A DNA stretch of 64,000 nt from Sphingomonas sp. M1-B02 (GTDB lineage: Bacteria; Pseudomonadota; Alphaproteobacteria; Sphingomonadales; Sphingomonadaceae): NCBI RefSeq assembly GCF_026167525.1, contig NZ_CP110679.1, forward strand, positions 1,778,501 through 1,842,500, in the 5' to 3' direction. Below are positions 3,646-18,517 of this stretch, in pieces. The notes under the pieces are model-generated. The model was not told the DNA's origin and made no database searches. It saw only the letters and a program-made list of their open reading frames with translations. Position numbers and translations under genes: made by a program. Numbering within the stretch: position 1 is the first letter of the stretch; every line of letters begins with the position of its first letter.

Positions 3646-4104
3646 GTGCGCGACGGCAACGACGACAAGGACCAACCAGCGAGCCTAGGCTCGACGGACG
3701 CCCCGAGCATGTCGGGCGAAGCATTCATCGGGCTAGCGGACGATCTCGCACGAGGTGCCGCGGTTCTGGCCAGGCCCTTCAGCGAGACCGTCGACCGCAT
3801 CGAGCTCTCGGCGAGCACAGGAAGGCCACTGGTGCTTTCCGCCCATCACGCGCTCGCTTTGCTTCACAGCGACATCTTTCTCGAACTCACCAAGCGCAAG
3901 ATCAAGGAGTCGCGGGCTTCATGGAACACTCAGGCATACGTCCGAGCGGACGATTTCAATTCGGGGAGTATCACCTCTGGTACCGGCGCGACCGGGATGA
4001 CTGGGCCATCTGCTGGTACGCCGACGGCAAGACTCACCGTGTCCAGACCGGTATCGGTGGAGGCGATGCGGATAATCCGCCTCAGCAGGCGATCGAAGCG
4101 CTGA
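3646..4104 (+). CDS. Hypothetical protein overlapping the first recombinase
   Basis: This frame of 152 residues begins with a GTG preceded by GGAAGG about nine bases upstream. The first ~95 residues look protein-like (LADDLARGAAVLARPF, SAHHALALLHSDIF, LTKRKIKES). The last ~60 residues overlap the recombinase gene by 184 bases and are Ser/Thr/Gly/Arg-rich, which suggests a non-native tail. The recombinase ATG has its own AAGGAG inside this frame. It may be a short coupled gene whose original stop has been lost. Confidence 0.35.
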   Translation: MRDGNDDKDQPASLGSTDAPSMSGEAFIGLADDLARGAAVLARPFSETVDRIELSASTGRPLVLSAHHALALLHSDIFLELTKRKIKESRASWNTQAYVRADDFNSGSITSGTGATGMTGPSAGTPTARLTVSRPVSVEAMRIIRLSRRSKR

Positions 4105-5315
4105 CCGACCATCACAGGCGGCACGCCTCGCCAAACAAGGGCGGGCCTGCGGCGCCCGAGGTCCTGTTGATCGGGCCGGTCCTCGACCGCTGGCTCCTCG
4201 AGCATGTCTCGGGGCTGGCTGCCCCCCAGCGCTACGCCTGGTCGGTCGTGGCGTGGCAGCGCTTCTTCGACGACCGCGAAAAGAAGGGCGACCTGCGCGC
4301 CCGCACCGTGAGCATCCTCGACGACGATCTCCTCGAGGACTTCCTCGCATTTCGCCAGGCCGAAGGCGTCTGCGCGCCCACGATCGAACGGGACTTCGGC
4401 GCGGTCCGCTCCGCCTTGAACTGGGCCGTCACCAAGCACCTGCTGACGTTCGCGCCCCGGATCCCCAAGGTCGAGGGGCACAAGGTTAAGCGGCAGATCG
4501 AATTCTCGGTGCCGCAGCTGGCCGCGATCTTCGAGTCGGCGGCCAGCATGCCCGACGGAGAGCACCTCTTCCTCTTCATCCTCCTCATGGTCTTCGAGCA
4601 CGCCCGGGGGGAGGCTGTGCTGGAGCTCTACTCGGCACAGATCAAAGGCGACCGGATCCACTTCAACGCCGAAGAGAGGCCCCAGACGAGGAAGCACCGC
4701 GCCATCGTCCCCATAGTGCCCAGCGTGGCTCCCTGGCTTCAAGGCATCGAGGGCAAGGTCGTCATGTACCGGCGGTCGCGCACCCAGGCGGAGATCCAGG
4801 CGGGCAAGGGCACGTTCGAGGAGCGCCAGACCCATCGGCTCCAGCGCTCCTGGCGGACCTGCCTCCTGCGGGCGCATGCCGCGCATCCCGAGCTCGACCT
4901 GGCCCGGCAGGCGACCACGGGCACGGGCGAGCTGCTCTGGCTGCGGCCGCGCAACGCCCGCAACCTGAAGGACCGCGAATGGCGGCCCAAGATGGAAATC
5001 ATGGGTCCGCCCAATGCGTTGCGTCACACCAGCCACACCTGGCTCGAGCGCACGGGCGTACCCCGCGCGCAGATCGAGACGGCGGCCGGACACGAGGCGG
5101 GGGGCGATGGTTCGGGATCGATCTATACGCACGTGAGGCCCGACTATCTCTCGGATTTCGTGGCGGGGATGGAAAAGCTGTTCGACGAACTCGATGCCTA
5201 TACGAGCGCCCACCGGCACCCGAGCGATCCGAAGCACGCGCGCAACCGCACGGTCATCGGAGCTGCGCGGCGCTGGGTATCGCGCGCGTTGGGCGCAGTC
5301 GGCAGGCGCCCGTGA
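3921..5315 (+). CDS. Tyrosine recombinase / integrase (paralogue 1)
   Basis: The protein has 464 residues. The N-terminus carries a short domain (LWYRRDRDDWAICW) shared with the second recombinase in the window. An SAM-like core-binding region follows, then the catalytic domain: box I arginine in EHARGEAVLEL, a basic beta-hairpin around QTRKHRAIVP, box II as NALRH, then AAGHEAG and the tyrosine in SIYTHVRPDY. The usual first His of HxxR is Asn here. The start ATG at 3921 has AAGGAG eleven bases upstream. It is an element integrase, presumably for integration and excision of this island or of an older one stacked beside it. Confidence 0.85.
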   Translation: MEHSGIRPSGRFQFGEYHLWYRRDRDDWAICWYADGKTHRVQTGIGGGDADNPPQQAIEALTDHHRRHASPNKGGPAAPEVLLIGPVLDRWLLEHVSGLAAPQRYAWSVVAWQRFFDDREKKGDLRARTVSILDDDLLEDFLAFRQAEGVCAPTIERDFGAVRSALNWAVTKHLLTFAPRIPKVEGHKVKRQIEFSVPQLAAIFESAASMPDGEHLFLFILLMVFEHARGEAVLELYSAQIKGDRIHFNAEERPQTRKHRAIVPIVPSVAPWLQGIEGKVVMYRRSRTQAEIQAGKGTFEERQTHRLQRSWRTCLLRAHAAHPELDLARQATTGTGELLWLRPRNARNLKDREWRPKMEIMGPPNALRHTSHTWLERTGVPRAQIETAAGHEAGGDGSGSIYTHVRPDYLSDFVAGMEKLFDELDAYTSAHRHPSDPKHARNRTVIGAARRWVSRALGAVGRRP

Positions 5316-5514: not shown

Positions 5515-6153
5515 ATGACGGAATTGACATCGAAGCACCCTGATGGCGCACGCGAGCACGCCCGATCCTTTATCGAACGGCGCCTCATCGAGGGCTATTG
5601 GAGCTTCGGTACGCCGATCCCGGCCGTTACCCTGGCCGATGAAATCGGCATGAGCCCCAGCCCGGTTCGCGAGGCGCTCGCGACGCTGCACGGCGAAGGC
5701 GCAATCGAGGTTCGGCACCGCGACGGCTATTCAGTTCCCCGCCTGATGCCGCACGAACTCGCGGACGAATATCATGTGCTCGGCATCCTGGCCGAAGGGG
5801 TCGCACCCCATGTCGTTGCACCTCCCCTTACCGAGGCCGGAGTCCGGGCCGAGCCGCATGCCCGCGCCCGGCGCCTGGTGATGGCAATAGCGACAGCAGC
5901 CGGGTCCAATGTGGCGGCAGCGATATTCGAACGCTCGGCGCTTCGCCTGGTCGGCTATCAGCGCCTCGAGCCCGAGCTGTTCAGCGATTGGGAAGGGGAG
6001 CTGGCTCTTCTCGAGGCACTGCTTGCCGGCGGCGAGAAGGCGCCGCTGCGCGCCGCTCTGCGTCGTTACTATGCCCGGCGCATCAAGGCGGCGGGGATGT
6101 TGTCCAGGCTCGCCGAACAGATTGCGAAAAGAGAGCGGAAAGCATTCGAGTAG
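5515..6153 (+). CDS. GntR-family transcriptional regulator of the lasso cluster
   Basis: This 212-residue protein has an N-terminal winged helix of the GntR/FadR type (PAVTLADEIGMSPSPVREALATLHGEGAIEV, residues about 35-65) and a helical C-terminal region consistent with an FCD-like effector domain. It lies 69 bases upstream of the lasso precursor on the same strand and is probably cotranscribed or autoregulatory. GntR regulators accompany some proteobacterial lasso clusters. The effector is unknown. Confidence 0.85.
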   Translation: MTELTSKHPDGAREHARSFIERRLIEGYWSFGTPIPAVTLADEIGMSPSPVREALATLHGEGAIEVRHRDGYSVPRLMPHELADEYHVLGILAEGVAPHVVAPPLTEAGVRAEPHARARRLVMAIATAAGSNVAAAIFERSALRLVGYQRLEPELFSDWEGELALLEALLAGGEKAPLRAALRRYYARRIKAAGMLSRLAEQIAKRERKAFE

Positions 6154-6180
6154 ATTGCGCGATCGGCCTTTGATGCATGT

Positions 6181-6198
6181 TGCCGCAGTCCCGCGGCA
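6181..6198. promoter_or_regulatory. Dyad just upstream of the lasso precursor
   Basis: TGCCGC and GCGGCA form a perfect 6-bp inverted repeat around a 6-base loop. It lies between the GntR stop and the precursor AAGGAG ribosome binding site (6208-6213). It could be an operator half-site pair for the GntR protein or an RNA stem affecting precursor translation; the sequence cannot decide. Confidence 0.3.
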
Positions 6199-6222
6199 CA
6201 ATGTACCAAGGAGTATTTTGCC

Positions 6223-6345
6223 ATGAACCATACGAACAAGCCGCAGCCGATCGCGCTCGGCAGCGCTCGCCGGCTCACCCGGACCGTCTTCGCCGGCGAC
6301 CGGACCGAGCTCGAGACCCCGATCATGTTTCGCGAGAAGGCGTGA
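6223..6345 (+). CDS. Lasso peptide precursor (A), 40 aa
   Basis: A 40-residue ORF with a strong AAGGAG nine bases upstream precedes the B and C genes, and its TGA overlaps the GTG of B (GTGA). The leader contains PIALGSARRLTR, matching the LG-x-A-x-x-LT-x ending typical of proteobacterial lasso leaders, where Thr is the penultimate leader residue. Cleavage after Arg20 gives a 20-residue core, T21 to A40, starting TVFAGDRTE with Glu at core position 9 for a 9-residue macrolactam and the tail LETPIMFREKA. An alternative cleavage after Val22 (Thr21 at -2) gives a core starting FAGDRTELE, also with Glu9. Either way residue 1 would not be Gly, which is unusual for this group. Confidence 0.8.
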   Translation: MNHTNKPQPIALGSARRLTRTVFAGDRTELETPIMFREKA

Positions 6346-6995
6346 ACGACCAGGCGGAGGTGGCATTGCCGCCTCCGCCGATTCGAGCGCCCGCCATGCT
6401 TCCCCGCTTCCGCATCGCTATCCTGGACGCGTTCCATATTGTCCTCGACATGCAGGACGATCGCTATCTGGCGGTTGCCCGCGACGCGGGCGCCTGCGGC
6501 TTGGCGGACGAAGGGGCGCTGCTTGCCGAAACCTTAGCGGCTTCTAGCGCCGATATCGGATTTGCGGCGTCGCTTCACCCGCGCTTCCAGATGCCCAGGC
6601 GCGATCTCGGCGTCGACCTCGGCGAGCACCCTGCCCTGGTTGACTGGGCGGCGCTGCTCGCCGCGCTGCCGCTCAGCCTTTTCCAGCTTCGTATCGCCCC
6701 GCCCTCCGCCTGGTTCAGGGGCGATGCGAGCGCTCCCTTGCGCCCAATCGGCGAGCTCGTCGCAGCGGCGCGACGTTTCCGTTCGATGCGGCCCTATGTG
6801 CCGGGCGTTCGGCGTTGCCTGCCGCGCTCGCTGCTGCTCCTCTCCTATCTGCGGGTCCTGGGGCTTGATGCGCGCCTCGTCATTGGCGTTCGGCTCTTCC
6901 CCTTCGACGCCCATAGCTGGGTGCAGGCCGGCGACGTCGTCCTCACCGACGACTTGGAACAGCTCTCGGGCTACGCGCCCATCGTAGTGGGCTGA
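6342..6995 (+). CDS. Lasso peptide B protein: fused leader-binding domain and transglutaminase-like protease
   Basis: The 217-residue protein starts at the GTG overlapping the precursor stop. Residues about 20-80 (AILDAFHIVLDMQDDRYLAV) form the N-terminal domain that in proteobacterial B proteins binds the leader. The C-terminal half is the transglutaminase-like cysteine protease, with Cys159 in RRCLPRS, His191 in FDAHSWVQ and Asp203 or 204 in LTDDL. It would cut the leader from the core before cyclisation. The fused B1-B2 layout and its position between precursor and cyclase match MccJ25-type clusters. Confidence 0.9.
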   Translation: MNDQAEVALPPPPIRAPAMLPRFRIAILDAFHIVLDMQDDRYLAVARDAGACGLADEGALLAETLAASSADIGFAASLHPRFQMPRRDLGVDLGEHPALVDWAALLAALPLSLFQLRIAPPSAWFRGDASAPLRPIGELVAAARRFRSMRPYVPGVRRCLPRSLLLLSYLRVLGLDARLVIGVRLFPFDAHSWVQAGDVVLTDDLEQLSGYAPIVVG

Positions 6996-6999
6996 GTGG

Positions 7000-8751
7000 A
7001 TGCCCCCGGCCTTCTTCATCCTGCGACATGGGCATGCGGGCGGGCCGCCGGACGGCGCGGATAGGTTCGCCGATGCCATTCTCCGGGAATTCCCGGGCGT
7101 GACGCGCGTCATCGACAATGGAGTCATCCTCGCGCTGGCCGCGCCGGGACACCTGCAGAGCATCGATGGCGAGACGCCGAACTGGATTTTGGGCGACGTT
7201 TGTCCTTCGGGCGGACTGGCTATGTATCGGAGCGCGGCGAGGACCACGCCCGACGGGAGGTCAGCGGCTCTCGCGCGGACCCTGACCCGCACGTGCTGGG
7301 GCAGCTATGTCGCTCTCCTGGGCGACGGCGCGGATGCATTTGTCCTGCGCGATCCCTCGGGGGGCGTGCCGCTCTTCGTGCTGGGCGGCCGCGGCATCAC
7401 CATCGCAGCAACGGCGCTGACACCTCGTCTGCTGCGCGCGGCAGGGCTTCCGCCCGATCCCGACCTTAACAATGTCGCGCACGTCCTCGCCCATCCCCCG
7501 GCGGCCGCGCACCTGTCGCTTCTGAAGGGCATCTCGATTGTCACGCCCGGCGATGCCGTACTCCTTGCAGAGCCCGAGCGAAGGGAGACGGTCTGGTCGC
7601 CCGCCAGCATCGCCGCGACGCCACAGCCTCTGACCCCCGGGGACATCCTCGCCACATTGGATGCGGTCACCGGCAAGTTCGCGACCGACAAATTGACGGG
7701 CGTGGAGCTATCGGGCGGCTTCGATTCCTCGAGCGTATTCGCAAGCCTCGCAGCAACTGGCCGGCGTATGCGCCCCTTCAACGTGGCAACCGCCTCGAGT
7801 GCTGGCGACGAGCGGAACTTTGCCCGCTCGGTCGCAGCCCGATGGAGCACACCACTCAGGGAGTTCGAAGCCGGGGCCGCACTTCCGGACTATGGGCCGC
7901 TTCTCGACCTCCACCATGAAGTGCAACCCGCGCTCACCGGACTGGACAGCGTGTTCGCAGCCGCGCGCGAGACGTTCGCCGCCGAGGAGAAGCTGGACCT
8001 GGTGATGACCGGACAAGGCGGCGACGCCTTGTTCTTCCAGCTGCCAACCCGGCTTGTCGCCGTCGACAGACTGCAAGCACAGGGACTACGCGGGCTCGCT
8101 GTCACCAAGCTGCGCGACGATGCGGTCCGCAGCGGATCCTCGATCTGGAGCGTCGCCGCGACGGCCATGGGCGTGCGTATGGAAGCGGATCGGGACGCGC
8201 TGCCGCCGCTCACGCCGCACCTGCTCGGGCATGTCTCGCTTGGGGCACTCCAGCGCCCAGCGCCGACCCATCCATGGCTTTCCCAAGGGGGCAAGTTGCC
8301 GCCGGCAAAACGCCGACACCTGATGATGCTCGCCAACTCGCAGCTGGTCCACGGTCCCCGCCTCTTCCACCCGAGCGCGCCGCTCCATCATCCCCTCCTG
8401 GCCCAGCCGCTCGTCGAGCGCCTCCTCGCATGCCCGGTGCACCTGCTGGCCAAGGGGCCCCTCGACCGGGGCCTCGCCCGCGACGCCATGCGCGACAGGC
8501 TTTCCGAGGCGGTCCTCCATCGTCGCAGCAAGGGAGAAGCATCGGATCACTATGCCCGCGCGGTGCTGCACAACCGCGACTGGCTGCTGAGCGTATTGCT
8601 GGATGGTGCCCTCGCGCGCGCCGGTCTCATCGACCGGCAGGCCGTGGAACAAGCGCTTCAGATTGAGCAGATTGCAATCAGCACCGATTATCGAGCTTTC
8701 GCCGTCTATGCCTGTCTCGAGGCCTGGCTGCGCTACTGGACCGCTGATTGA
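7000..8751 (+). CDS. Lasso peptide cyclase (C), asparagine synthetase homologue
   Basis: This 583-residue protein is an asparagine-synthetase-like ATP-dependent macrolactam synthetase. The PP-loop ELSGGFDSSS lies near residue 237 and a second conserved segment VMTGQGGDALFF near residue 335. The N-terminal amidotransferase-like domain lacks a Cys at position 2, as expected for lasso cyclases that do not use glutamine. It would adenylate the core Glu side chain and join it to the new N-terminus while the peptide is threaded. It begins four bases after the B stop and its 3' end overlaps the convergent isopeptidase gene by 19 bases. Confidence 0.92.
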   Translation: MPPAFFILRHGHAGGPPDGADRFADAILREFPGVTRVIDNGVILALAAPGHLQSIDGETPNWILGDVCPSGGLAMYRSAARTTPDGRSAALARTLTRTCWGSYVALLGDGADAFVLRDPSGGVPLFVLGGRGITIAATALTPRLLRAAGLPPDPDLNNVAHVLAHPPAAAHLSLLKGISIVTPGDAVLLAEPERRETVWSPASIAATPQPLTPGDILATLDAVTGKFATDKLTGVELSGGFDSSSVFASLAATGRRMRPFNVATASSAGDERNFARSVAARWSTPLREFEAGAALPDYGPLLDLHHEVQPALTGLDSVFAAARETFAAEEKLDLVMTGQGGDALFFQLPTRLVAVDRLQAQGLRGLAVTKLRDDAVRSGSSIWSVAATAMGVRMEADRDALPPLTPHLLGHVSLGALQRPAPTHPWLSQGGKLPPAKRRHLMMLANSQLVHGPRLFHPSAPLHHPLLAQPLVERLLACPVHLLAKGPLDRGLARDAMRDRLSEAVLHRRSKGEASDHYARAVLHNRDWLLSVLLDGALARAGLIDRQAVEQALQIEQIAISTDYRAFAVYACLEAWLRYWTAD

Positions 8752-11105
8752 GCGCGGCTACCCGTCTCGTCCCGAAGCGCCTTGGCAAGGAAGGCAAGAA
8801 TGGTATCCCATTGCAGGCGCAGATTGGCGGGGCTCTGGACTACGTGCCCCTCGCCGTAAAAGCGCAGCAAGGTCGCATCCCGCCCCATGCGATTGAGGCT
8901 GACGAACAAGCGTTCAGCCTGCTCCATCGGCACATAATCGATGTCTCCCCCGATGAGCAGCAGCGGCGCGGTGATTCGCTCAGCTTCCAGGAAACTGCTC
9001 GCCTGCCGGTAGCGTGTTGGATCGATCCAGGGTGGCGCGCCGAACTGCCCCTGTCCGGTCTCATACCAAGCGGCGGCTGCTTCGAGCGGCACGCCTTCCC
9101 CCAGCACGACGCGCTGGGCGGGCGGTACGGTGCCGTAAGCCGACCCCGGATCACTCAGGCCGCTGGCCGACACAATCGCTCGAAACCGCTTGCTTTCCGC
9201 AGCGAGGGTCAGCGCATTTACACCACCATAGCTGTGTCCGTGCGCGGCCAGCCGTTCGGGATCGACGCGCCCAGTTCCGACCGCGGCGTCGATCGCTGCG
9301 TCCACATCACGCACCAACACGCTTTGCGGGGCACCAGGCGGACCTGCAGGCAAGCTGGGCAAGAGCACTGCGTAGCCGTTCGCAACGAGAAGCAGCGCGT
9401 TCTTGGCCGAGCCGAAATAGTCGGCACGCGCAGCCGCCGGCAGCGACCGGGTATAAACTGTGCCTTGATAGGGTACGACAACGAGGGGTGACCGCGACGA
9501 TCCGGCAGGCAGGAGAAGCCAGTCGATCAGCTTCTTGCCGTTGTGGCCCTGTCGCACAAGTGGCAGCGCCTCTGGACGGTCGACGTGGGCGAGATGCGTG
9601 GAGATCCGGTCCACGACGATGCGCTTTCGTCCTTTCTCGTGAAGCACGAGATAGCCCACGCCATAGGCGTCGGTTTGCAGCGTGATGGCCGCGCCACCTT
9701 TCGGCGATACGGCGAGGAGTTCGTCGCGCTCGCTCAACGGGGCGCTCACCGGCTGGCCTGCTTCAAAGCCAAAATATGCCGTGATGCGGTTCCCATCGCG
9801 GCACCCGAGAACCGGGCTCGGCGGCCTCCGAACGGCGCGGATGCCGGTGCTCGAGTCGTCCAGATATTCGAGGCCGCTGCGCACGATGGCGCATCGATGG
9901 ATACGCTTCAACGCGCCGGAGCGGTCGAGCCGCCACAGGGAATTTCCGCCTGCGGCCAGCCAAGCCGCCTTAAAGTCCCCGGCAACCAGGCGCGCGCTCC
10001 GCTCGATGCCGACCCGCAAGGCGCCATCACCCTGCCCCAGCATCCAAGAGCCGTCCTCTGCCTGGAACAGAAGACGCTCCCCGAGCCAGAGCGCGGACTT
10101 CGCCGGGCCCAGCGTCCCAATGTCCAGCGCAGACCTCCCGGCGCCAATTAGCCGCAGCGCCATTGCGCTCCATGGTTCACCATCGAGGCGGCTTAAGAAG
10201 ACAAGCGCACCGAGCCTAGAGATCTCGACGCTTCTCGCCATGACATCGCAGCGCCCGCAGGGCTGCGAAACGGTTCCGGAACGCAGATTGAGCAACAGCA
10301 GACGACGGCGGCGGGGCTCGTAGTTTGCAGTAATTGGGACGCCGCTGTCAGGTTGAACCGCTTCTCCACGGACGAGAATCGCGACCCGGTTGTCTCCCTG
10401 TGTCGCGACAAACTCATCTGCAGCGCCAGTGAATAGAACGCGCGCCTCTCCGCTCTCGACATCCACCACCACGAGCTCTCGGATTTCCCGGGACCGCGCT
10501 TCTGAAATGCCCCGCAAACGCGCCAGATCGGCAGACGCTAGCTTGCCCTCTGCGGCTGCGGCCCACCGCGCGGTGATCGTCTTTTGAACCACGCCGGGGT
10601 GATCGAGAACAAATGGAAGTCGCTCCTCCTTGAATCGCAGATAGAGGATACGATGCGAATCCAGCCACACCGGCGCCGGCGCTGCGAGGGGAAGATCGGG
10701 CGCGCCCTCCAGCCAGCGGACGCTGCCGCGCTTAAGATCGGCGACGCCTAGGCGCAGCCGATCCTGTTGCAGCCGGTATACGGTGAGCTTTGCGCCCGAT
10801 CGCGAAAAGCCGCCGGCCCAATAACCGGCATCTGCCTCTTGGTGGAATGCCGGCCGAAGTGCGTGCGACGTCCCGAGGTCGAGACGCAGAACCTGCGAGT
10901 TCATCCGTTGCACCAAGTAGCCATAGGAGTAGCGCGAGGCGCTGTCATAGGCGCCCCGGCGCTCGACGATCGCCGACCGTCCGTCCGGCGCTATCAGCAT
11001 CTGACCATAGCTCTCGAGCTTGAGCATATCCTCAAGCGTGTAGGGGCGCGCGGAGGCGGCCGAAGCGAGGCACAGAAGAGCCAGGCCCGCGAGGAAGGCT
11101 CGCAT
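8733..11105 (-). CDS. Secreted lasso peptide isopeptidase (S9 prolyl-oligopeptidase family, AtxE-like)
   Basis: The protein has 790 residues and a cleavable signal peptide (MRAFLAGLALLCLASAASA). A large beta-propeller-like region is followed by an alpha/beta hydrolase domain with the triad: Ser in GHSYGG near residue 625, Asp in GGDIDYV near 720 and His in GEGHVV near 752. AtxE-type enzymes from Asticcacaulis, Caulobacter and Sphingopyxis hydrolyse the isopeptide bond of the cognate lasso peptide. The location between the cyclase and the TonB receptor makes this much more likely than a general dipeptidyl peptidase. The signal peptide suggests action in the periplasm. Confidence 0.85.
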   Translation of the reverse strand: MRAFLAGLALLCLASAASARPYTLEDMLKLESYGQMLIAPDGRSAIVERRGAYDSASRYSYGYLVQRMNSQVLRLDLGTSHALRPAFHQEADAGYWAGGFSRSGAKLTVYRLQQDRLRLGVADLKRGSVRWLEGAPDLPLAAPAPVWLDSHRILYLRFKEERLPFVLDHPGVVQKTITARWAAAAEGKLASADLARLRGISEARSREIRELVVVDVESGEARVLFTGAADEFVATQGDNRVAILVRGEAVQPDSGVPITANYEPRRRRLLLLNLRSGTVSQPCGRCDVMARSVEISRLGALVFLSRLDGEPWSAMALRLIGAGRSALDIGTLGPAKSALWLGERLLFQAEDGSWMLGQGDGALRVGIERSARLVAGDFKAAWLAAGGNSLWRLDRSGALKRIHRCAIVRSGLEYLDDSSTGIRAVRRPPSPVLGCRDGNRITAYFGFEAGQPVSAPLSERDELLAVSPKGGAAITLQTDAYGVGYLVLHEKGRKRIVVDRISTHLAHVDRPEALPLVRQGHNGKKLIDWLLLPAGSSRSPLVVVPYQGTVYTRSLPAAARADYFGSAKNALLLVANGYAVLLPSLPAGPPGAPQSVLVRDVDAAIDAAVGTGRVDPERLAAHGHSYGGVNALTLAAESKRFRAIVSASGLSDPGSAYGTVPPAQRVVLGEGVPLEAAAAWYETGQGQFGAPPWIDPTRYRQASSFLEAERITAPLLLIGGDIDYVPMEQAERLFVSLNRMGRDATLLRFYGEGHVVQSPANLRLQWDTILAFLAKALRDETGSRAQSAVQ

Positions 11106-11171
11106 GACGATGTTCCTTCGAAAGGGTGGGCTGGACGCCGCTGCGCTAGGTCGCAGCGGCGTCCCTCGGGA

Positions 11172-14100
11172 TCACCAGGTCTTCGAGACCTGAACCGAGA
11201 TCAGGCGACCGAGTACATCCGCGTTGGCCGGATCGTAGCCCACGCCGGCGGCGCGGTTCACGAAAGGGGGCGAGCGGTCGAACAGGTTTCTGGCGTCAAG
11301 AGACAGGGTGAACCCCCTGGCCGACTGCGGTGTCGCGCGAAGCTGCAAGTCGAACGTCAGCCAGGCCGGAACCCTCCGCGAGGGTACGCTGTCGATGTCG
11401 CGGTAGCTCCCGACATAGGTCGCTGACAGGGTCGCGCCGAAGCCACCGTCCGACCAGTCGAGGCTGGATCGGCTCTTGAACCGCGCCGGATAACCCACCG
11501 TCGAAACCAGACCGAGCGTCGGAGCCGTAGGGGTGATCTGCTGCGAATACCGAAAAAGGTACGAGGCTCCGGCAGTCGCAGAAATGGTGCCCGCGCCCAA
11601 CGCCATGTTCGCATCTACTTCCACATCGAGGCCTTCGACTTCCACCTTGGATGTGTTCACATACCGGCCATCGACGATTGCTCGGTATGAGTTGATAGGA
11701 AGTGCGTCGACATCGACTGCGCCGGGATCGGCTAGAAGCGTCTGCACCCTTGCGAGATCCGCCGGATTCGTCACGGGATCGAGCCGCTCCACGAAAGGGG
11801 AAAGCGATGCGTCGGTCAGCGCCGTCAGGATCGACTGCAGCGCGGGCCGATCGATCCTGTTCACGAAACGCGTGCGGAAGTAGTTGATGTCGAGGCGCAC
11901 GCGCCGGCTCATCTGAAAGGCGAGGCCGCCAGTAATCGTGTCCGCAGTCTCGGGTTTAAGGGCTGGGTTGCCACCGCTCAGGAACAGGACCGGAGTGGTG
12001 GTGCCGGCGCCGGTGGGTAGCAGCGTCGGTGAAACGCCGAACGTGCTGTAGATCTCGGGCAATGCGGGGGCCCGAAACGATCGTCCCCAGCTCGCGCGAA
12101 GGCTCAGCGGACCTGCAATCCGCCACGTCGCACCAACCTTGGGCGTCGTCGTCTTGCCGAAATCGCTATACTCTTCGTGGCGAATGGCAGCCGACAGGTC
12201 GAGCTTACCAGGCCCCGCGTCCTGCGCCACATCGAAGACCGGAATGCTCAGCTCTCCGAAGACCGCCTTGATCTGCCGGTCGGCGTAGGTCGTGGAGACG
12301 GGACGCGGCGCCGTGCCGCTGTCGAAATTGAATCCGCCACTTTCGAGCGTCTCGCCGCGCCAGGCACCCCCCACCGCGAGCCGGAGCGACCCTGCAGGCA
12401 AGCGGAGGAGGGGCCCGTCGAGCTTGGCGACCGCAGTAGCGAGAGAACTGCGCCCGGTGCTGCCCGAAACGCCGGACCCTATGAAACGCAGAACGCTTTG
12501 CGAGTTGGACATGCCGGAACCGAAAGGATTGAAATAGCCATCGCGCGCAGCGCGAAATTGTGTCGCCGGATTGTCCGGCGCCGTGCCGAGCGCTTCGGAA
12601 AGCGCGCTGGAGTTGATCTTGTTGCTGGTTGTGCTGCCCGAGCGCTCCCGACTGTGCAGGAAATAGGCATCGAGCTGCCAGCCGCTCCAGATGTCCGCAG
12701 TCATGCCGCCGGTGATGCTGGCTGCATCGACCCAGCCTCGCGCATCGATCGGGCCCAGATCATCACCGAAGGAATAGGCGATGATCGTGGCCGGCGTGCC
12801 GTCGGGGCTCGCGAAATAGGGATTGGCGGCCGTCACGGCGATCGTCGCGGTCGAAGGCGGCAACGCGTAGGAAAAGCGCCGCCGTGCCCAGCGTCCCTCG
12901 AGAAAGAACTCGATGCCCGACGCTACCTCCTGATCACCTCGAACATAAACGGAGTGACGTTCCTGCAGGGGCAGCGTGTCGGTGAGCTCGAACTGGCTCT
13001 CTAGGTTGCGGCCGGGTGTGAAGTCCTGCCGCGACGGTCGATCGGTCGAGGCGGGGATCGCAAACGCCGGGACATAGGCACGCGCGACCGTATCATATCG
13101 TAGAACCGTGCCAGGAGCCGACAGGTAGGAACGCCAGTCGCTTCCGCCCAACGGGCGCAGATCCGCCGAACGCGTGACCGCGCGCTCGCTGGAGGCAAGT
13201 GAGCCGCGCCGGTCATACTCGTAGGCGACCAGGACACCGCCACCCCCCCACCGCACACCCGCAAGCTGGCTCGCCTGGTAGTTCGCCGGCGCGCCGCTCG
13301 TGCCGATGCCGGAGCGCAGTCGCGTGTCTGCGCCCTCATAATCCTGCTTGAGAATGATGTTGACGACGCCACCGATCGCATCGGAACCGTAAATCGCCGA
13401 TGCCCCGTCCTTCAGGACCTCGATCCGTTCCACTGCCGCGAGCGGGATCGTCGAGAGGTCGGAATAGTCGCCCCGCCCGCCCGAGCCGGCCTGGCGCCGC
13501 CCGTTAACCAGGGTCAATGTCGCATCGCTCCCAAGACCGCGCAGGTTCGGCGACGAGGCTAGCGAATAGTTGAGGCTGGAGCGGTCAAGGATTCCCAGCG
13601 TCGCCGCGTCGCTGCCGGTCGCTCCGGAATTTTGCGGCAGGAGCGATACGACATCGGCGACGCTCGCCCGGGTGGAGCGGTCGATTGCCCGGCGATCGAT
13701 GGTCGTAACGGAAGCACCCGCCGGCATCGCTCCTCGGATGGTGGTGCCTGTCACGACGATCGGTTCCGAGGCCTGCGCGGCCGCCTCCATATCTCGGCCC
13801 TGGACCGGGGCAATCTCGCTGACCTGCGCAGCATCGCCCGCCGCCGAGATGACGATAACATCGGGCCGCACATGCTCGACCCGCACGGTTACGCCGTTCA
13901 GCAAAAGCGCGAGAGCGGTATCCGCATCATATGTCCCGATCAACTTTGGCGCGGGTCGGCCGGCGACCGTTTCCGGGCGGAATATGATCTGCCGGCCGGT
14001 GATCCTCGAATATTGCCGCAGGGCCGCGTCCAGTGAGAGGCCGCTCAGCGAAAAGCGATAGCTCTGCGCGGCCTGCGCCTGAACGCTGTCGAGAGGGATC

Positions 14101-14174
14101 ATTGCCGCCCCGCTCAACAGGCTCGCCGCAACCGGGAGTATCCACCGCGCTGTCTTTGCCCTGCCCATCTTCAT
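11172..14174 (-). CDS. STN-domain TonB-dependent receptor (FecA-like transducer)
   Basis: From the ATG at 14174 (an alternative ATG lies two codons on) the protein has 1000 residues. It has a signal peptide ending near VQAQA, an STN signalling domain (YRFSLSGLSLDAALRQYS to about residue 105), a TonB-box-like EPIVVTGT, a plug (SVADVVSLLPQ, LVNGRRQ, VLKDGASAIYGSDAIGG) and a 22-strand-type barrel ending in a C-terminal Trp. The longer frame to 14498 overlaps the upstream XRE gene and has no signal. STN receptors pass ligand occupancy to FecR. Here the probable ligand is the lasso peptide itself. Confidence 0.88.
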   Translation of the reverse strand: MKMGRAKTARWILPVAASLLSGAAMIPLDSVQAQAAQSYRFSLSGLSLDAALRQYSRITGRQIIFRPETVAGRPAPKLIGTYDADTALALLLNGVTVRVEHVRPDVIVISAAGDAAQVSEIAPVQGRDMEAAAQASEPIVVTGTTIRGAMPAGASVTTIDRRAIDRSTRASVADVVSLLPQNSGATGSDAATLGILDRSSLNYSLASSPNLRGLGSDATLTLVNGRRQAGSGGRGDYSDLSTIPLAAVERIEVLKDGASAIYGSDAIGGVVNIILKQDYEGADTRLRSGIGTSGAPANYQASQLAGVRWGGGGVLVAYEYDRRGSLASSERAVTRSADLRPLGGSDWRSYLSAPGTVLRYDTVARAYVPAFAIPASTDRPSRQDFTPGRNLESQFELTDTLPLQERHSVYVRGDQEVASGIEFFLEGRWARRRFSYALPPSTATIAVTAANPYFASPDGTPATIIAYSFGDDLGPIDARGWVDAASITGGMTADIWSGWQLDAYFLHSRERSGSTTSNKINSSALSEALGTAPDNPATQFRAARDGYFNPFGSGMSNSQSVLRFIGSGVSGSTGRSSLATAVAKLDGPLLRLPAGSLRLAVGGAWRGETLESGGFNFDSGTAPRPVSTTYADRQIKAVFGELSIPVFDVAQDAGPGKLDLSAAIRHEEYSDFGKTTTPKVGATWRIAGPLSLRASWGRSFRAPALPEIYSTFGVSPTLLPTGAGTTTPVLFLSGGNPALKPETADTITGGLAFQMSRRVRLDINYFRTRFVNRIDRPALQSILTALTDASLSPFVERLDPVTNPADLARVQTLLADPGAVDVDALPINSYRAIVDGRYVNTSKVEVEGLDVEVDANMALGAGTISATAGASYLFRYSQQITPTAPTLGLVSTVGYPARFKSRSSLDWSDGGFGATLSATYVGSYRDIDSVPSRRVPAWLTFDLQLRATPQSARGFTLSLDARNLFDRSPPFVNRAAGVGYDPANADVLGRLISVQVSKTW

Positions 14175-14243
14175 CCTTCGTCCCCCTGTGATTCCGGGGG
14201 GGGCGAGAAGCTCTACGTATCGCCGGCCTCCCCGATCATGAAG

Positions 14244-14273
14244 GAAACGCCGCAGAACCCGCTCACCCCTAAC
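14244..14273 (-). promoter_or_regulatory. Candidate FecI-type promoter of the TonB receptor
   Basis: Read on the - strand, GTTAGGGGT is followed 12 bases later by CGGCGTTTC, about 70 bases upstream of the receptor ATG, and is preceded by an A/T-rich AAAGAAATTCTCTC stretch. This resembles the GTTAGGG / CGTC layout I associate with FecI-group promoters of sphingomonad TonB receptors. The match is by eye from memory, not computed. Confidence 0.35.
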
Positions 14274-14451
14274 GGCCGAGAGAATTTCTTTGCATGGGCG
14301 ACCGCGGCGATCGCGGGCACGGGCGGACTTTTTTCTTTCTTCGCGGGTCGCGTGCTGGCTACAGAGGCGCCCAAGTGTCGCTGGCACCCGAAAATCCGCA
14401 AGAACCTTGCGGGAAGCACGCAGAGTGGAAGCGAATCGGCCGTATCGTCGC

Positions 14452-14985
14452 TCAGTCGTCCCCAGAGCCCTTGGGTCCGTCGTTGAGCCACCGGCCAAGC
14501 ATCGGAGCCTTTTCGTTCAGCCAGGTTTCGGCGAATTGGTCCCGCTTGCGCACATGCTGCGTCAGATCGTTGCGGACCCGGGTGAAGGCGCCGATCAGCG
14601 CCCCCGGCTCGAGAAAGACGATGTCGTCGCCGAGATCTTCGTCGAGTTCCTTCATGGTGATCATCAAAATCGTCATCAGCTTATTGTCGGCACAACGAAG
14701 CGCGAACTCAGGCGAATTGAGAGGGCCGCTTGCCAGGAGCGCCCACCCGTCGGTGTCGGTCGCGCGCGCAAATGCCATCACGCGCTCGAAGCTTACACGA
14801 CCTTTTCCGCTCTCCAGATATTCGTATGAGCGCAGCGGCATCTTCATTTCGCGCGCTATATCGTTGACGCGCAGCCGCCGGGCGCGGCGAATGAGGCGCA
14901 TCGTCGCGCCAATCGTTGCCGCGCTTATGTCTCCGGGATGCTTTGCGACATCGCGAGCCGGTTCGGTGCCGTCGCCCTCAGCCAA
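14452..14985 (-). CDS. XRE-family HTH regulator within the lasso cluster
   Basis: The 177-residue protein has an XRE-type HTH (MRLIRRARRLRVNDIAREMKMPLRSYEYLESGKG, residues about 29-62) and a C-terminal region with a run of acidic residues (ELDEDLGDD). It lies between fecR and the TonB receptor on the same strand: the gap to FecR is 54 bases and to the receptor start 277 bases. It may respond to cell or phage state and add a control layer to the FecI/FecR circuit. I know no exact counterpart in described lasso clusters. Confidence 0.75.
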   Translation of the reverse strand: MAEGDGTEPARDVAKHPGDISAATIGATMRLIRRARRLRVNDIAREMKMPLRSYEYLESGKGRVSFERVMAFARATDTDGWALLASGPLNSPEFALRCADNKLMTILMITMKELDEDLGDDIVFLEPGALIGAFTRVRNDLTQHVRKRDQFAETWLNEKAPMLGRWLNDGPKGSGDD

Positions 14986-15039
14986 CCGAGATGCTCCACG
15001 CTCGATGCACGCAGTCGATCAGAAACTCGCTGGTGGGCT

Positions 15040-16032
15040 TCATCGGCGCTCCGACAAACGAATGGTGCCGCTCTCGTCGACCGTTTTCTGCAAGGGCAGC
15101 AGCGCGGTCACCGCAGCGGCGAACGCGTCCTCGTCTCCGGCGAGAAAAGCACCGGAAATGCGCGTCTGCGCCTGCGCAGGAGCATCTAGGACGATGGGCT
15201 TGCTGGTGTATCGGTTGATCTCGGCGATGGCGCTCGCCAGCGGCACATCTCGTAGATCCACCTTGCCATTGATCCAGCTCGTCGCGACGGCCGGATCGCT
15301 GCGCCGTATCCCAACGCGCACGGCGCCGCTCTCCATTGTTTCGCCCGGATGCTCCAGCGTCGCCGGCGACGACGCATGTGCCGACACGACCGACACGCGC
15401 CCCTCAACCAGTGTGACGCGGACCTGGTCACCGTCGCGGCGCACCTCGAAGACCGTTCCAAGCGCAGTGACGCTGGTGCCATCCGACGTCACCTTGAAGG
15501 GGCGCTGCGGGTCATGCGCCACCTCGAACATCGCCTGGCCACGTTCCAATTCTACGCGGCGCTCGCCTCTAGCCAAGCGCACCGAAAGGCTTGTCGCGGT
15601 GTTGAGCGTCAGCCGGCTTCCATCCTCTAACTCCACCACAAGCCGTTCACCTACGCCGGTGCGATAGGTCGCCGGCTGGTTCGTAATCGCCCATGCCGTC
15701 ACCATCACTGCAAGCGCAGCGAAGGCGCCGGGAATCCACAGCAGTCTCGCTCGGCCGCGCAAGAGGCCAAGTATGTAAGTGCCAAAGGACATCCGCTGGC
15801 TCTTTACACTCCGCAGGGCTCGCATGATGTCCGGATCGCGGGATAGTCCGGACGCCTGACCCCAGATGTTGTCGAGTTCGGCGAAGGCGCGTTCATGGCT
15901 GGGATTGCTTCGCCAGGCGTAAAAGCGTTCGAGTTCGTCATGGGTGACGGCACGCGACTGAAGTCGCGCGTACCATTCGGCAGCCTCGAGGCGGGCATCT
16001 TGATCCTTTGCGCTCGACATCCCGGACAGCAT
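15040..16032 (-). CDS. FecR-like anti-sigma factor / inner-membrane signal transducer
   Basis: From the ATG at 16032, which shares its A with the upstream sigma-factor stop (TGATG), the protein has 330 residues; an ATG four codons on is equally possible. The N-terminal DUF4880-type segment (ARLEAAEWYARL, SHERAFAELDNIW) binds the sigma factor. One transmembrane helix (LLWIPGAFAALAVMVTAWAI) is followed by the periplasmic FecR domain (GERLVVELEDGSRLTLNTATSL, RGQAMFEVAHDPQRPF, ALGTVFEVR) and an STN-contact C-terminus (PLASAIAEINRYTSKPIVL). It links the receptor to the FecI-like sigma factor. Confidence 0.9.
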   Translation of the reverse strand: MLSGMSSAKDQDARLEAAEWYARLQSRAVTHDELERFYAWRSNPSHERAFAELDNIWGQASGLSRDPDIMRALRSVKSQRMSFGTYILGLLRGRARLLWIPGAFAALAVMVTAWAITNQPATYRTGVGERLVVELEDGSRLTLNTATSLSVRLARGERRVELERGQAMFEVAHDPQRPFKVTSDGTSVTALGTVFEVRRDGDQVRVTLVEGRVSVVSAHASSPATLEHPGETMESGAVRVGIRRSDPAVATSWINGKVDLRDVPLASAIAEINRYTSKPIVLDAPAQAQTRISGAFLAGDEDAFAAAVTALLPLQKTVDESGTIRLSERR

Positions 16033-16553
16033 CACTCTGCGATCCGATCCGCGCAATAGGCGAGCGCCTTGGCAAGCCTCCACTCGACGGTTTTGATCGA
16101 AATGCCCAGACGCGTCGCGATTTCAGCTTGGCTCAGCGGCGTAAACCTGACGAGCAGGAACACGTCGCGTTGTGGCGCGGGCATTCCAAGCACGATCTGC
16201 TTGAGGACCAGCATATGATGCTGGTCTGCTTCGCTGGGCCCGCCCTCTCCTCCTTCGACGCCAAATGCCTTATAGCCAGCCCTCTCCCGAGCATTTGCCC
16301 GAAAACGATCCTTGATGAGGTTGCCAAGGATGCGTGCCAGCAGGGAGCGCGGTTCGAGACGCGCCTTGGCGGGATAGCGAGAGGCCCGTATGTAAGTCTC
16401 CTGCACAAGATCCTCGGCGTCTTCCGATCGACCCAAACGGCGACGCGCTAAATTCGCCAGCCACGGGGCGTGCGCGCGGTAGTCGCGCTCCAGCGCGGCA
16501 CGCTCGAGCCCCTCGGTGGTTCGCGAATGATCCTGCGCTCTTTTTGCCGTCAC
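16032..16553 (-). CDS. FecI-like ECF sigma factor
   Basis: The GTG at 16553 is preceded by a strong GAGGAGG seven bases upstream and gives 173 residues. Upstream in-frame residues are Arg/Pro-rich and unlikely to be translated. Sigma region 2 (WLANLARRRLGRSEDAEDLVQETYIRA) and region 4 (LPLSQAEIATRLGISIKTVEWRL-like, written here as PLSQAEIATRLGISIKTVE) are clear. The gene is first in a sigma-FecR-XRE-receptor-isopeptidase series read leftwards. It should direct transcription of the receptor, and perhaps the isopeptidase, when the receptor signals occupancy. Confidence 0.9.
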   Translation of the reverse strand: MTAKRAQDHSRTTEGLERAALERDYRAHAPWLANLARRRLGRSEDAEDLVQETYIRASRYPAKARLEPRSLLARILGNLIKDRFRANARERAGYKAFGVEGGEGGPSEADQHHMLVLKQIVLGMPAPQRDVFLLVRFTPLSQAEIATRLGISIKTVEWRLAKALAYCADRIAE

Positions 16554-17072
16554 GGTCTTGCCTCCTCGATGACAAGGGAGTGGAAAGACAAACGTGTGAG
16601 GGCGACGGCCGCGCGAAGACGCGCGCGCTCGATGTGAAAGCATGGGCACTACCCGCTTCCAGCTGTTCCCGACACAAGGGTTTCCACACCCTGCACCCGG
16701 CCGGCGCCGCGTGCTTATCAAGCCTGACTCAGGCAAATCCCGCGGGCAAGCCCGGCGGAGGGGGGGCGGGCGTTGGAAACCCATTGTGAGGGTCCGCTAT
16801 TTGCGATCGCGCCACGCCAACGCTCGATGAGCCCCCCAGCACTCAGGCACGATCCCTATTTCACGGCGCCCGCCAACCTCAGACTAGCAATAGCCGGGTC
16901 AGCGGACAAACATCCGGCTCGGTGGAATGCGTAGGAACGAGCGAATCAATCTCCGATGTCGCAATGGTCAGTAGGCCGACTGCGCGCTGAGGGCTGGGCG
17001 CTGCAGAGCGCATGGCCGCGAGGAAGGTCAATCGAAGGGAAGTTGCCGACACGGTTTGTCGGAGGAAAATAC
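16554..17072. other. Non-coding gap between the sigma factor and recombinase 2
   Basis: About 520 bases separate the FecI-like gene from the ATG of recombinase 2. The frame of the recombinase extends back to 16956, but the extra residues are Arg/Gly/Trp-rich and lack homology to recombinase 1. The gap should hold divergent promoters. I see no RNA gene, strong repeat or copy of the tRNA-Ala 3' end in it. Confidence 0.4.
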
Positions 17073-18398
17073 ATGAAGTCGGAAAGTGCCCTCAGGGTGC
17101 AGTTGGGCCCCTACTGGCTTTGGTACAGGCGTGATCGCGACGACTGGCAAATCTGCTGGCTCGACCGTCGTGCGGTCCGCCGTCGCAGCACCGGCATCAA
17201 GGGGGCGGGAGTCACCCCGCCCCGCGAAGCTCAGGCAGCGCTGGGGAAGCATTTTCTGGAGAACCAGCGACCAGAAACGGGTTTTCAGGATCCCTCAGAA
17301 CTGACGATCGAGGAGATCACCCGACTTTGGCGACGTGATCATGTAGCCTACCTCAAGGCGCCTGAGCGCTACGACCCTTCGATCGCGACGCTTGCTCGCT
17401 TCTTTGAGCGTGAGCAGGCACGAGGCACGCTGCGGGGGGCACCCACGATCGCCGACATCCGCACCGGCTTGGTGCGCGCCTTCATCCGCTTTCGTGAGCA
17501 GGAGGGCGCAAGTCCCCCCACTATCGCACGCGATCTTGCGGCACTTCGCGGTCCGGTGATGTGGGCGCGCAATGAAAACATGGTCGCCTCGGTCCCGAAG
17601 GTCATCGTCCCCGAGGGCAGCAACCGTTCGCGCGAGGATGTCTATACGCCCGAGCAGATTGCCGCGCTCTTAGAGCGGGCAGCGGCGTTGCCGGAAAGGC
17701 GACACCTGCTTTTGTATATGGTTATCTCCCTGTCGACGCTCGCACGATCACAAGCGATTTTGGAGCTTGTGGCAGAGACGCAGATCAAGGGCGATCGGAT
17801 CTACTTCAATGCGCCTGGCCGCCAGCAGACCCGTAAACGCCGCGCCGTGGTGCCGATCGCGCCAACCTTGAGGCCGTGGCTGGAAGGGATCACTGGCAAA
17901 GTGATCGTGTATCGCGCGGTCATCTTCGAGGCTGCCCGCGTCTGCGGGGGACCAGACCACTTTCACCATCCGACGGCAGACGTCGGACGTGCGTTCAAGA
18001 GTTGCCTAATAGAAGCCGGCCTGAAGCAGCCAGCCCTCGATCTATGTCGCCCCGTCCTTGATGAGCATGGCGTGCCGATCACGCTTCCGCCGCGCCTGAA
18101 GCTTCGGGAAAACAAGCCTCGGCCGCTGATGCAAGGCGTGGGCACGCCCAACACGCTGCGTCACTCCTTGCACACGTTCCTCGCATCGAAGGGCGTGCCT
18201 TCGGCTCAAGTAAAGACCGCCGCCGGCCACACGACCGAAGACGGCTGCGGCGACAGATACAATCATCTTCGGCCCGAGTATCTGATGGAGTTCGTTGCTG
18301 GTATCGAGGCCTTCTGGAGCGAGGTGGGCCGCTTCACTTCGGTACACTTGCGATACCAGAGCGATACCAAAGGGCTAGTTCAGCACCCCGGCCCCTGA
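17073..18398 (+). CDS. Tyrosine recombinase / integrase (paralogue 2, tRNA-proximal)
   Basis: The ATG at 17073 has GGAGGA six bases upstream, deciding the start over the ATG at 16956; the protein has 441 residues. It shares with recombinase 1 the N-terminal YWLWYRRDRDDWQICW, the core-binding domain (PTIARDLAALRGPVMWA) and the catalytic domain: box I Arg in LARSQAILEL, basic QTRKRRAVVPI, NTLRHSLHTFL, AAGHTTEDG and the tyrosine in DRYNHLRPEYL. As in the paralogue, the first His of HxxR is Asn. It stops 43 bases from the tRNA-Ala 3' end and is the likely integrase of the island. Confidence 0.88.
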   Translation: MKSESALRVQLGPYWLWYRRDRDDWQICWLDRRAVRRRSTGIKGAGVTPPREAQAALGKHFLENQRPETGFQDPSELTIEEITRLWRRDHVAYLKAPERYDPSIATLARFFEREQARGTLRGAPTIADIRTGLVRAFIRFREQEGASPPTIARDLAALRGPVMWARNENMVASVPKVIVPEGSNRSREDVYTPEQIAALLERAAALPERRHLLLYMVISLSTLARSQAILELVAETQIKGDRIYFNAPGRQQTRKRRAVVPIAPTLRPWLEGITGKVIVYRAVIFEAARVCGGPDHFHHPTADVGRAFKSCLIEAGLKQPALDLCRPVLDEHGVPITLPPRLKLRENKPRPLMQGVGTPNTLRHSLHTFLASKGVPSAQVKTAAGHTTEDGCGDRYNHLRPEYLMEFVAGIEAFWSEVGRFTSVHLRYQSDTKGLVQHPGP

Positions 18399-18441: not shown

Positions 18442-18517
18442 TGGTGGAGCTGAGGGGAATCGAACCCCTGGCCTCTGCAGTGCGATTGCAGCGCTCTCCC
18501 ATCTGAGCTACAGCCCC
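18442..18517 (-). tRNA. tRNA-Ala (anticodon CGC)
   Basis: A 76-base cloverleaf is read on the - strand: acceptor GGGGCTG / CAGCTCC, D-arm GCTCAGATGGGAGAGC, anticodon stem CTGCA / TGCAG with loop ATCGCAC (anticodon CGC), T-arm with GGTTCGATTCC and an encoded CCA end. Its 3' end faces the island recombinase, so it is the probable attachment site. Confidence 0.95.

Follow-up and report, generated by a model that had tools for sequence, protein, structure and literature searches.

The nine-gene block at positions 5515-16553 of the window (the whole 64,000-nucleotide stretch of Sphingomonas DNA analysed here, taken from a 3.6-Mb genome on a single contig) raises the question whether it represents a complete lasso peptide system and, if so, what distinguishes it from the systems of this type that are already known. 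The block lies between two tyrosine integrases and consists of the genes GntR-precursor-B-C on the plus strand and S9-TonB receptor-XRE-FecR-FecI on the minus strand. The first-pass annotation of this DNA had named these nine genes and their strands, and all of them were found where it had placed them. Its description as a complete isopeptidase-type lasso cluster with TonB receptor, FecI and FecR also held, for a type that has, according to the accessible text of PMC9266682, already been published. Within this type, the locus is probably a complete system of the caulonodin IV-VII kind. Gene content, gene order, family membership and the register of the precursor are established from the sequence, and the individual features are the following:

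5515-6153, plus strand: GntR-family regulator, 212 amino acids (PF00392, 43.9 bits, cut-off 27)
6223-6345, plus strand: lasso precursor, 40 amino acids, with leader MNHTNKPQPIALGSARRLTR and core TVFAGDRTELETPIMFREKA, a predicted ring from Thr1 to Glu9, and AAGGAG ahead of the ATG
6342-6995, plus strand: lasso B protein with leader peptidase domain (NF033537, 67.2 bits, cut-off 33)
7000-8751, plus strand: lasso C protein, an asparagine-synthetase-like macrolactam cyclase, 583 amino acids (PF00733, 91.5 bits, cut-off 21)
8733-11105, minus strand: S9 serine hydrolase, 790 amino acids, with signal-like N-terminus, putative lasso isopeptidase (PF00326, 79.9 bits)
11172-14174, minus strand: TonB-dependent receptor with STN-like N-terminal domain, 1000 amino acids (PF00593 and PF07715 over cut-off)
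14397-14411, no strand assigned: candidate operator palindrome CGCAAGAACCTTGCG, the sole exact CGCAAGNNNCTTGCG of the genome
14452-14985, minus strand: class-associated XRE regulator, at most 177 amino acids, start uncertain (PF13560, 30 bits, cut-off 27)
15040 to about 16020, minus strand: FecR-like anti-sigma factor or sensor (PF04773, 89 bits; PF16220, 36 bits)
16032-16553, minus strand: FecI-like extracytoplasmic function (ECF) sigma factor, 173 amino acids (Sigma70_r2, 51 bits; Sigma70_r4_2, 42 bits)

Each of the nine reading frames is open and the catalytic positions are intact, and a search with C as query (E 1e-20) yielded a single match in the own genome, which is the cluster itself. 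The C protein exhibits the motifs SGGFDSS and GQGGD and is of the asparagine-synthetase type, as PF00733 is clearly over its cut-off; more specific cyclase models stayed below theirs (80.2 of 300 and 27.5 of 525 bits). B starts at ATG 6396 or at GTG 6342, in the latter case overlapping the stop of the precursor. Its N-terminal part was read by eye as an RRE (recognition element of ribosomally synthesised and post-translationally modified peptides), and its leader-peptidase (transglutaminase-like) domain contains the catalytic residues Cys159 and His191, which are invariant in 59 class B proteins. The residue following the catalytic His (B residue 192 counted from GTG 6342, encoded at 6915-6917) is Ser, while 98% of the 59 class B proteins have Cys there. 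On the sensing side, an STN-type receptor, FecR and an ECF sigma factor are present in one locus, with the FecR and sigma domains over their cut-offs. The TonB plug and barrel of the receptor were recovered; the STN domain was weak (PF07660, 15.5 bits, cut-off 28.4), and this part is covered by the alignment of a FecA model, which starts from residue 26. No exporter gene was seen in the open reading frame lists of the interval, for which no search aimed at exporters was made.

Dozens of other genomes have the same layout, and the arrangement is therefore not due to chance. A scan of named genomes with the class C alignment gave 68 loci, chiefly from Sphingomonas, Brevundimonas, Caulobacter and their kin. 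Among the 66 loci with C and S9 close to each other (de-duplicated on C residues 1-300), 64 contained an S9 enzyme of the same lineage as the window, and these are referred to as class loci in the following; the remaining two were of the AtxE2 type. GntR was present in 58 of the 66 loci, the receptor in 64, FecR in 60 and FecI in 56, with some contigs being cut short. In one class locus, L124 from an assembly of Caulobacter vibrioides, the core of caulonodin VI is encoded letter for letter together with a near copy of caulonodin VII, and the window is therefore assigned to the branch of caulonodins IV-VII.

This placement is supported by the precursor itself. Class precursors were gathered by reading small frames ahead of B in the related clusters, and in an alignment of 26 rows (the window and 25 class precursors, one of which needs a one-residue gap in the ring and has its own Glu at 8) three positions were invariant: Gly13, Thr19 (position -2) and Glu29 (core Glu9). 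These columns set the core of the window precursor as TVFAGDRTELETPIMFREKA and the end of its leader as ...LGSARRLTR. The precursor thereby has the Thr at -2 and the Glu or Asp at core position 7-9 that mark lasso precursors, and its leader and Glu9 core stand in the family register of the caulonodin IV-VII branch. A GDRTEL in the same register is found in the core of L117, and the database protein P0138 exhibits a similar core plan, GAFIPDRVEDQLLQTPGSMFPKAG, having DR.E in common with the window. As the 40-residue precursor matched no Pfam or NCBIfam model, automatic annotation may miss genes of this kind.

A number of observations weigh against reading the block as a complete and working system of this kind with a dedicated isopeptidase and an operator of its own. 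The 64 class loci were selected for having S9, and the remaining loci were examined separately. Thirteen loci had C and no such S9 near it, five of which (L150-L154) are distant lasso or asparagine-synthetase loci. One of the other eight, L093, repeats L054, and another, L099, contains a diverged S9 frame (profile E 2.3e-13). This leaves six distinct loci (L054, L056, L095, L106, L112 and L119) without S9 within about 9-10 kb of C. All six combine B and C with GntR, XRE or both, L056 additionally has the receptor and FecR, and three of them are strains of Sphingomonas kyeonggiensis. Linearisation is therefore no fixed part of the class. Moreover, the S9 protein of the window shares 22% identity with AtxE2-type enzymes versus 20% with housekeeping S9 paralogues (only two AtxE2-type rows being available), and almost no other class locus of the Sphingomonadales exhibits a clear copy of the palindrome. 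A repeat of the tRNA end was not found in the 164 kb around the block, the best non-self match being 13 bp long. The beta-branched Thr1 may slow cyclisation, and the cluster as a whole could be silent or decaying.

One gene in addition to the architecture described in PMC9266682 is the XRE regulator. It was found in 57 of the 64 class loci, in 54 of them outside GntR and in three, the window included, between the receptor and FecR; two of the seven loci without it are on contigs shorter than 8 kb. A search for homologues in 295 Sphingomonas genomes unveiled 18 places in 17 genomes (own genome included), 16 of which adjoin a class cluster. One exception, L174 (G045:C1:2872000-2891000), contains a class XRE and a GntR fragment without matches to B, C or S9 and is likely the remnant of a cluster. 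In the other, L178 (G276:C29:380000-398900), FecI, FecR and a large TonB receptor are accompanied by a partial XRE-like frame, again with no matches to B, C or S9; this locus is possibly a receiver without a producer. XRE is also present in five of the six clusters lacking S9 and in L099, and thus in 63 of 71 class-like loci; as it is kept in clusters without S9, it stays with the biosynthetic genes. By its distribution in these genomes, it is a class-associated regulator. No report of lasso isopeptidase clusters with an XRE or helix-turn-helix regulator was found in the literature searched. In four rearranged clusters (L190, L191, L193 and L195) S9 and the receptor lie beyond XRE, so that XRE stands between two gene groups. 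The same layout is found on a Polymorphobacter plasmid (L087, NZ_CP080242.1) with TraL/TraE genes nearby, where no precursor is annotated and none was found by the precursor pattern. A mixed cluster, L063, combines a class-type S9 with a benenodin-like precursor (LGAVSEETK, Gly1) and has no XRE.

A possible binding site of this regulator is provided by the motif CGCAA-N5-TTGCG, which was derived from palindromes common to the regions ahead of GntR. Sites with at most one mismatch were present in upstream regions of 34 of the 64 loci, mostly between XRE and GntR (35 hits) or before FecI (25 hits); 34 further hits were located inside genes. Twenty scrambled half-sites, used as control, gave upstream sites in 0 to 9 loci. 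The loci with upstream sites are nearly all from Caulobacterales and related by descent, and in these the palindrome occurs between XRE and GntR as well as before FecI, so that each of the two operons is preceded by it. In the window, the motif is matched perfectly once, at 14397-14411 in the interval that separates XRE from the receptor gene. With a weight matrix this site scored 21.0 bits, while no site in 25 other Sphingomonadales loci exceeded 13.6 bits. Twelve of these 25 loci have a weak site ahead of GntR or XRE (p <=0.05 by 100 shuffles without correction, testing up to five regions in each locus; some of the loci are near copies). The motif is not enriched across the genome, as its 30 one-mismatch copies correspond to the chance level. 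Pairs of sites 22 bp apart were observed in L101, L102, L105, L114, L120-L122, L125 and L145.

From its sequence and position, the palindrome at 14397-14411 is likely an operator. The competing explanation is that it is no operator at all and arises either from a chance match or from a terminator hairpin after XRE, which we regard as a substantial possibility without expecting it to be the case. The 30 one-mismatch copies imply that about 0.8 exact copies are expected in the genome, and the pattern read backwards gives a similar total (32 vs 31). The site lies just past the XRE stop, where a 7-bp hairpin followed by ATTTT is possible, and the scarcity of the palindrome in the other Sphingomonadales loci would also fit this explanation. 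However, the regions used to define the motif are those ahead of GntR, and the window lacks a good copy there; the sole exact copy falls into the cluster, which makes up 0.3% of the genome, and lies next to XRE and ahead of the receptor. The positions of the Caulobacterales copies, between XRE and GntR and before FecI, likewise argue for an operator, and a terminator scan made no call at 14397-14411.

The assignment of the S9 hydrolase as the isopeptidase is less straightforward. The gene stands where an isopeptidase gene is expected, and this part of the earlier label was confirmed. Membership in the AtxE2 family was rejected, as the protein scored 52 bits with the family model NF033523, which has a cut-off of 400. 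Ser625 and His754 are invariant and Asp723 is present at >=90% in 32 class members, and the structural model (mean predicted local distance difference test score 87.3) displays the S9 fold with propeller and hydrolase domain. This fold with catalytic Ser, His and acidic residue is common to other S9 enzymes and hence does not discriminate between them. A Foldseek search with the model gave an S9 carboxypeptidase (8wt1) as top solved structure, AtxE2 at rank 21 and SpI-IsoP at rank 25, while neither of the latter two was among the 50 matches listed by a VIA structure comparison, which carries no weight given that Foldseek listed both. In a tree of the S9 domain, a motif filter dropped five of 28 rows including those of the AtxE2-type loci L086 and L062, and with two AtxE2-type rows left, AtxE2-type and housekeeping S9 enzymes are not separable as the nearer relative. 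The class S9 profile does reach AtxE2 (E 1.3e-17); other S9 peptidases score better. Weak AtxE2-type matches appeared in ten class loci (49-56 bits at E 1e-6). Among 49 small lasso loci, including the own locus of the window and about 1.5 kb of flank each, 20 contained an AtxE2-type S9 and 18 a window-type S9 at E 1e-10, while none contained both and 11 neither. On a tree of 70 C proteins (34 thinned class rows, 21 AtxE2-type and 15 unlabelled), the S9 type needs two changes versus a shuffled mean of 17. By these sequence comparisons, the S9 enzyme is of a lineage separate from AtxE2.

The isopeptidase function suggested by the first-pass annotation is thus weaker than stated there: it is based on the gene position and on the analogy of two S9 lineages. 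The enzyme could instead be a general periplasmic peptidase which acts on already linear or imported peptide, or on another substrate. The low NF033523 score, the Foldseek ranking, the nearly equal identities to AtxE2-type enzymes and to paralogues, and the six related clusters without S9 near C are all in line with such a function. Against it stands the fact that the S9 gene occupies the AtxE2-type position in 64 of 71 distinct class-like loci, even with the selection of these 64 for having S9, and that none of the 49 small lasso loci matched both S9 types, as would be expected if both fill the same role. We therefore consider a general peptidase unlikely, yet well worth keeping in mind, and continue with the enzyme as a putative isopeptidase.

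The question of mobility concerns three further features:

16956-18398, plus strand: tyrosine integrase of a tRNA-Ala(cgc)-associated family (Phage_integrase, 25.7 bits, just below the cut-off of 27.1)
18442-18517, minus strand: tRNA-Ala(cgc), presumed attachment site, with its 3' end toward the integrase
3921-5315, plus strand: second tyrosine integrase (Phage_integrase, 17.1 bits, below cut-off; 41% identity to the first integrase)

The integrase at 16956-18398 was matched in ten of 150 other genomes (E 1e-60), and ARAGORN found tRNA-Ala(cgc) in six of the ten flanks, tRNA-Ala(ggc) in one, tRNA-Thr in one and none in two. The integrase thus sits at the 3' end of a tRNA which six of its ten relatives also adjoin. 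The second integrase has no tRNA within 1.5 kb; a ResIII/DEAD helicase frame with a zinc-ribbon-like part lies to its left (99-1808). G004, the nearest relative as judged by a core gene of the right flank (85% identity), is in step with the window up to tRNA-Ala(cgc) and continues with unrelated DNA, its contig ending 2.9 kb past the point of divergence. The corresponding stretches of six relatives contained no cluster gene and neither integrase, and five of the six also lacked the tRNA-Ala gene. The idea of a mobile tRNA island is therefore upheld in part, by the integrase family at tRNA-Ala(cgc) and by the divergence of G004 at this tRNA. It is not upheld at the far boundary, where a direct repeat of the tRNA end is missing: the 29-mer of the tRNA end is exact only once in the genome, and the next copy has three mismatches and is far away. 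A repeat that is short or decayed, or that lies beyond the stretch, may account for this. Neither integrase was found in any other class locus within the stretches examined, and the 13-kb block had no near match in a plasmid collection. Composition is no island marker here, with a G + C content of 0.62-0.68 across the island and of 0.54-0.70 in the window. Judged by these sequence features, the block most likely came in at the tRNA-Ala site via the integrase; as no attachment repeat was found, its present mobility is at best putative.

The lack of such a repeat, together with Thr1 and with a Ser where class B proteins almost always have Cys next to the catalytic His, would also be compatible with a remnant that has lost both production and mobility. 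As all nine genes are open and the catalytic positions intact, a remnant appears improbable, and a complete system remains the preferred interpretation.

The first residue of the core deserves particular attention. Distinct strings of leader end and core numbered 68; they come from 86 of the 98 loci that have C, with some genomes present twice and a few strings of the AtxE2 type. Ala was first in 44, Gly in 14, Ser in eight, Arg in one, which appears to be a degenerate extra copy, and Thr in one. A profile search of 5.8 billion proteins yielded 71 precursor-like proteins, of which 70 were parsed by script: 47 begin with Ala, 16 with Ser, five with Gly and two with Thr, and 69 have Glu9. One of the two proteins parsed with Thr is the window itself; the other, P0139, was misparsed and has Ala1 in the usual register. 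P0107, which is outside the script parse, has Ala1 by eye. Thr1 thus occurs in no other precursor of either set, a comparison that leaves out the precursors of the nine closest proteins (P0002-P0010, 45-54% identity); a first contig scan with the closest C proteins found no relative. The 62 lasso peptide names with sequences that are accessible in a 2025 review table (PMC12427821) begin with Gly, Ala, Ser, Cys, Leu or Trp, and Thr1 was in none of them when counted by eye. In the accessible text on metanodin (PMC12670498), the Asn1 of that peptide is treated as previously unreported, and no Thr1 was met in the papers that were searched by this term. By these sequence comparisons, Thr1 would be new with respect to the locus scan, the database search, the review table and the metanodin paper. 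The four known members of the caulonodin IV-VII group have Ala or Ser at this position; as Gly occurs there in further class precursors, this is not taken as a defining trait.

A second candidate core start had been proposed earlier, and it did not withstand the comparison: one precursor was found, not two, and the class alignment rules out Ala4 and Gly5 as core starts. A core beginning at Ala4 (AGDRTELETPIMFREKA, with a ring from Ala1 to Glu8 or Glu6) would keep a conventional first residue, Ala being the commonest in the class, but it moves the leader end by three residues. The conserved Thr would then no longer stand at -2, and the distance from Gly to Thr, constant in all 26 aligned precursors, would be lost together with the GDRTEL register common to L117; this start is thus very improbable. 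The calculated lasso masses (linear minus water) are 2292.157 for the Thr1 core and 1944.973 for the Ala4 core.

Compared with known systems, the window is closest to caulonodins IV-VII, which derive from Caulobacter sp. K31 (PMC7549694, accessible text). These have a nine-residue ring closed at Glu9, as predicted for the window (PMC12427821, accessible part), and the caulonodin VI-encoding L124 has the leader FGSAKRLTR and the same layout, XRE included. Outside the ring plan the cores are unlike, Thr1 replaces Ala or Ser, and XRE of the window lies between FecR and the receptor instead of outside GntR. Clusters of the AtxE2/benenodin type (astexins, benenodin-1, sphingocin) share GntR-A-B-C opposite isopeptidase-receptor-FecR-FecI (L086; PMC9266682, in its accessible part). 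They differ in their S9 enzymes, which have 652-674 amino acids and form a separate lineage, and in their Gly1 benenodin-type precursors, and the two AtxE2-type loci examined at length (L062 and L086) had no XRE homologue. The accessible text of PMC9266682 describes the whole isopeptidase-type architecture including GntR without an XRE gene. Metanodin, from a soil metagenome, also combines an unusual first ring residue with an isopeptidase gene in its cluster; its ring is, however, closed to Asp, and a term search of the accessible text retrieved no TonB (PMC12670498). The FecA-FecR-FecI ferric citrate system resembles the window in its STN-type receptor, FecR and FecI by family matches, but the genes of the window are tied to a lasso peptide. 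What is unusual here relative to the known system type is the predicted Thr1 ring and, as predicted from sequence, the class-wide XRE regulator with its candidate operator.

Taken together, we infer the following course of events. B would remove the leader after ...LTR, and C would link the Thr1 amine with the Glu9 side chain, closing a ring of nine residues and leaving eleven for loop and tail. The peptide would leave the cell, bind to the TonB receptor and be imported, upon which the N-terminal domain of the receptor would signal through FecR to FecI. FecI would then raise the expression of the FecI-FecR-XRE-receptor-S9 genes, and the S9 enzyme would open the ring in the periplasm. XRE probably binds CGCAA-N5-TTGCG and would thereby tie receptor expression to biosynthesis. 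The block itself would most likely have arrived via an integrase that uses tRNA-Ala(cgc). The far-reaching joint version of this picture, in which a second lasso-isopeptidase lineage apart from AtxE2 is combined with an own XRE that reads the palindrome before the biosynthetic and sensing operons and so closes a loop of uptake and production, and with the first natural Thr-closed lasso ring, is tentative and rather less likely than not.

The role that isopeptidase-type lasso peptides have for their producers is an open question in the literature and is called enigmatic in the accessible text of PMC9266682. A transposon in B of a benenodin/AtxE2-type Sphingomonas cluster abolished phenanthrene use, as described in the accessible part of PMC11006600; by analogy, this single mutant of another class fits an uptake-related role. 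A regulator found across the class, with a candidate operator ahead of each operon, would offer a direct handle on this question, as the release of XRE or the trigger of FecI may reveal the signal. The Thr1 ring would, if true, widen the known substrate range of lasso cyclases, and the S9 lineage may serve as a second test of how the threaded bond is cut.

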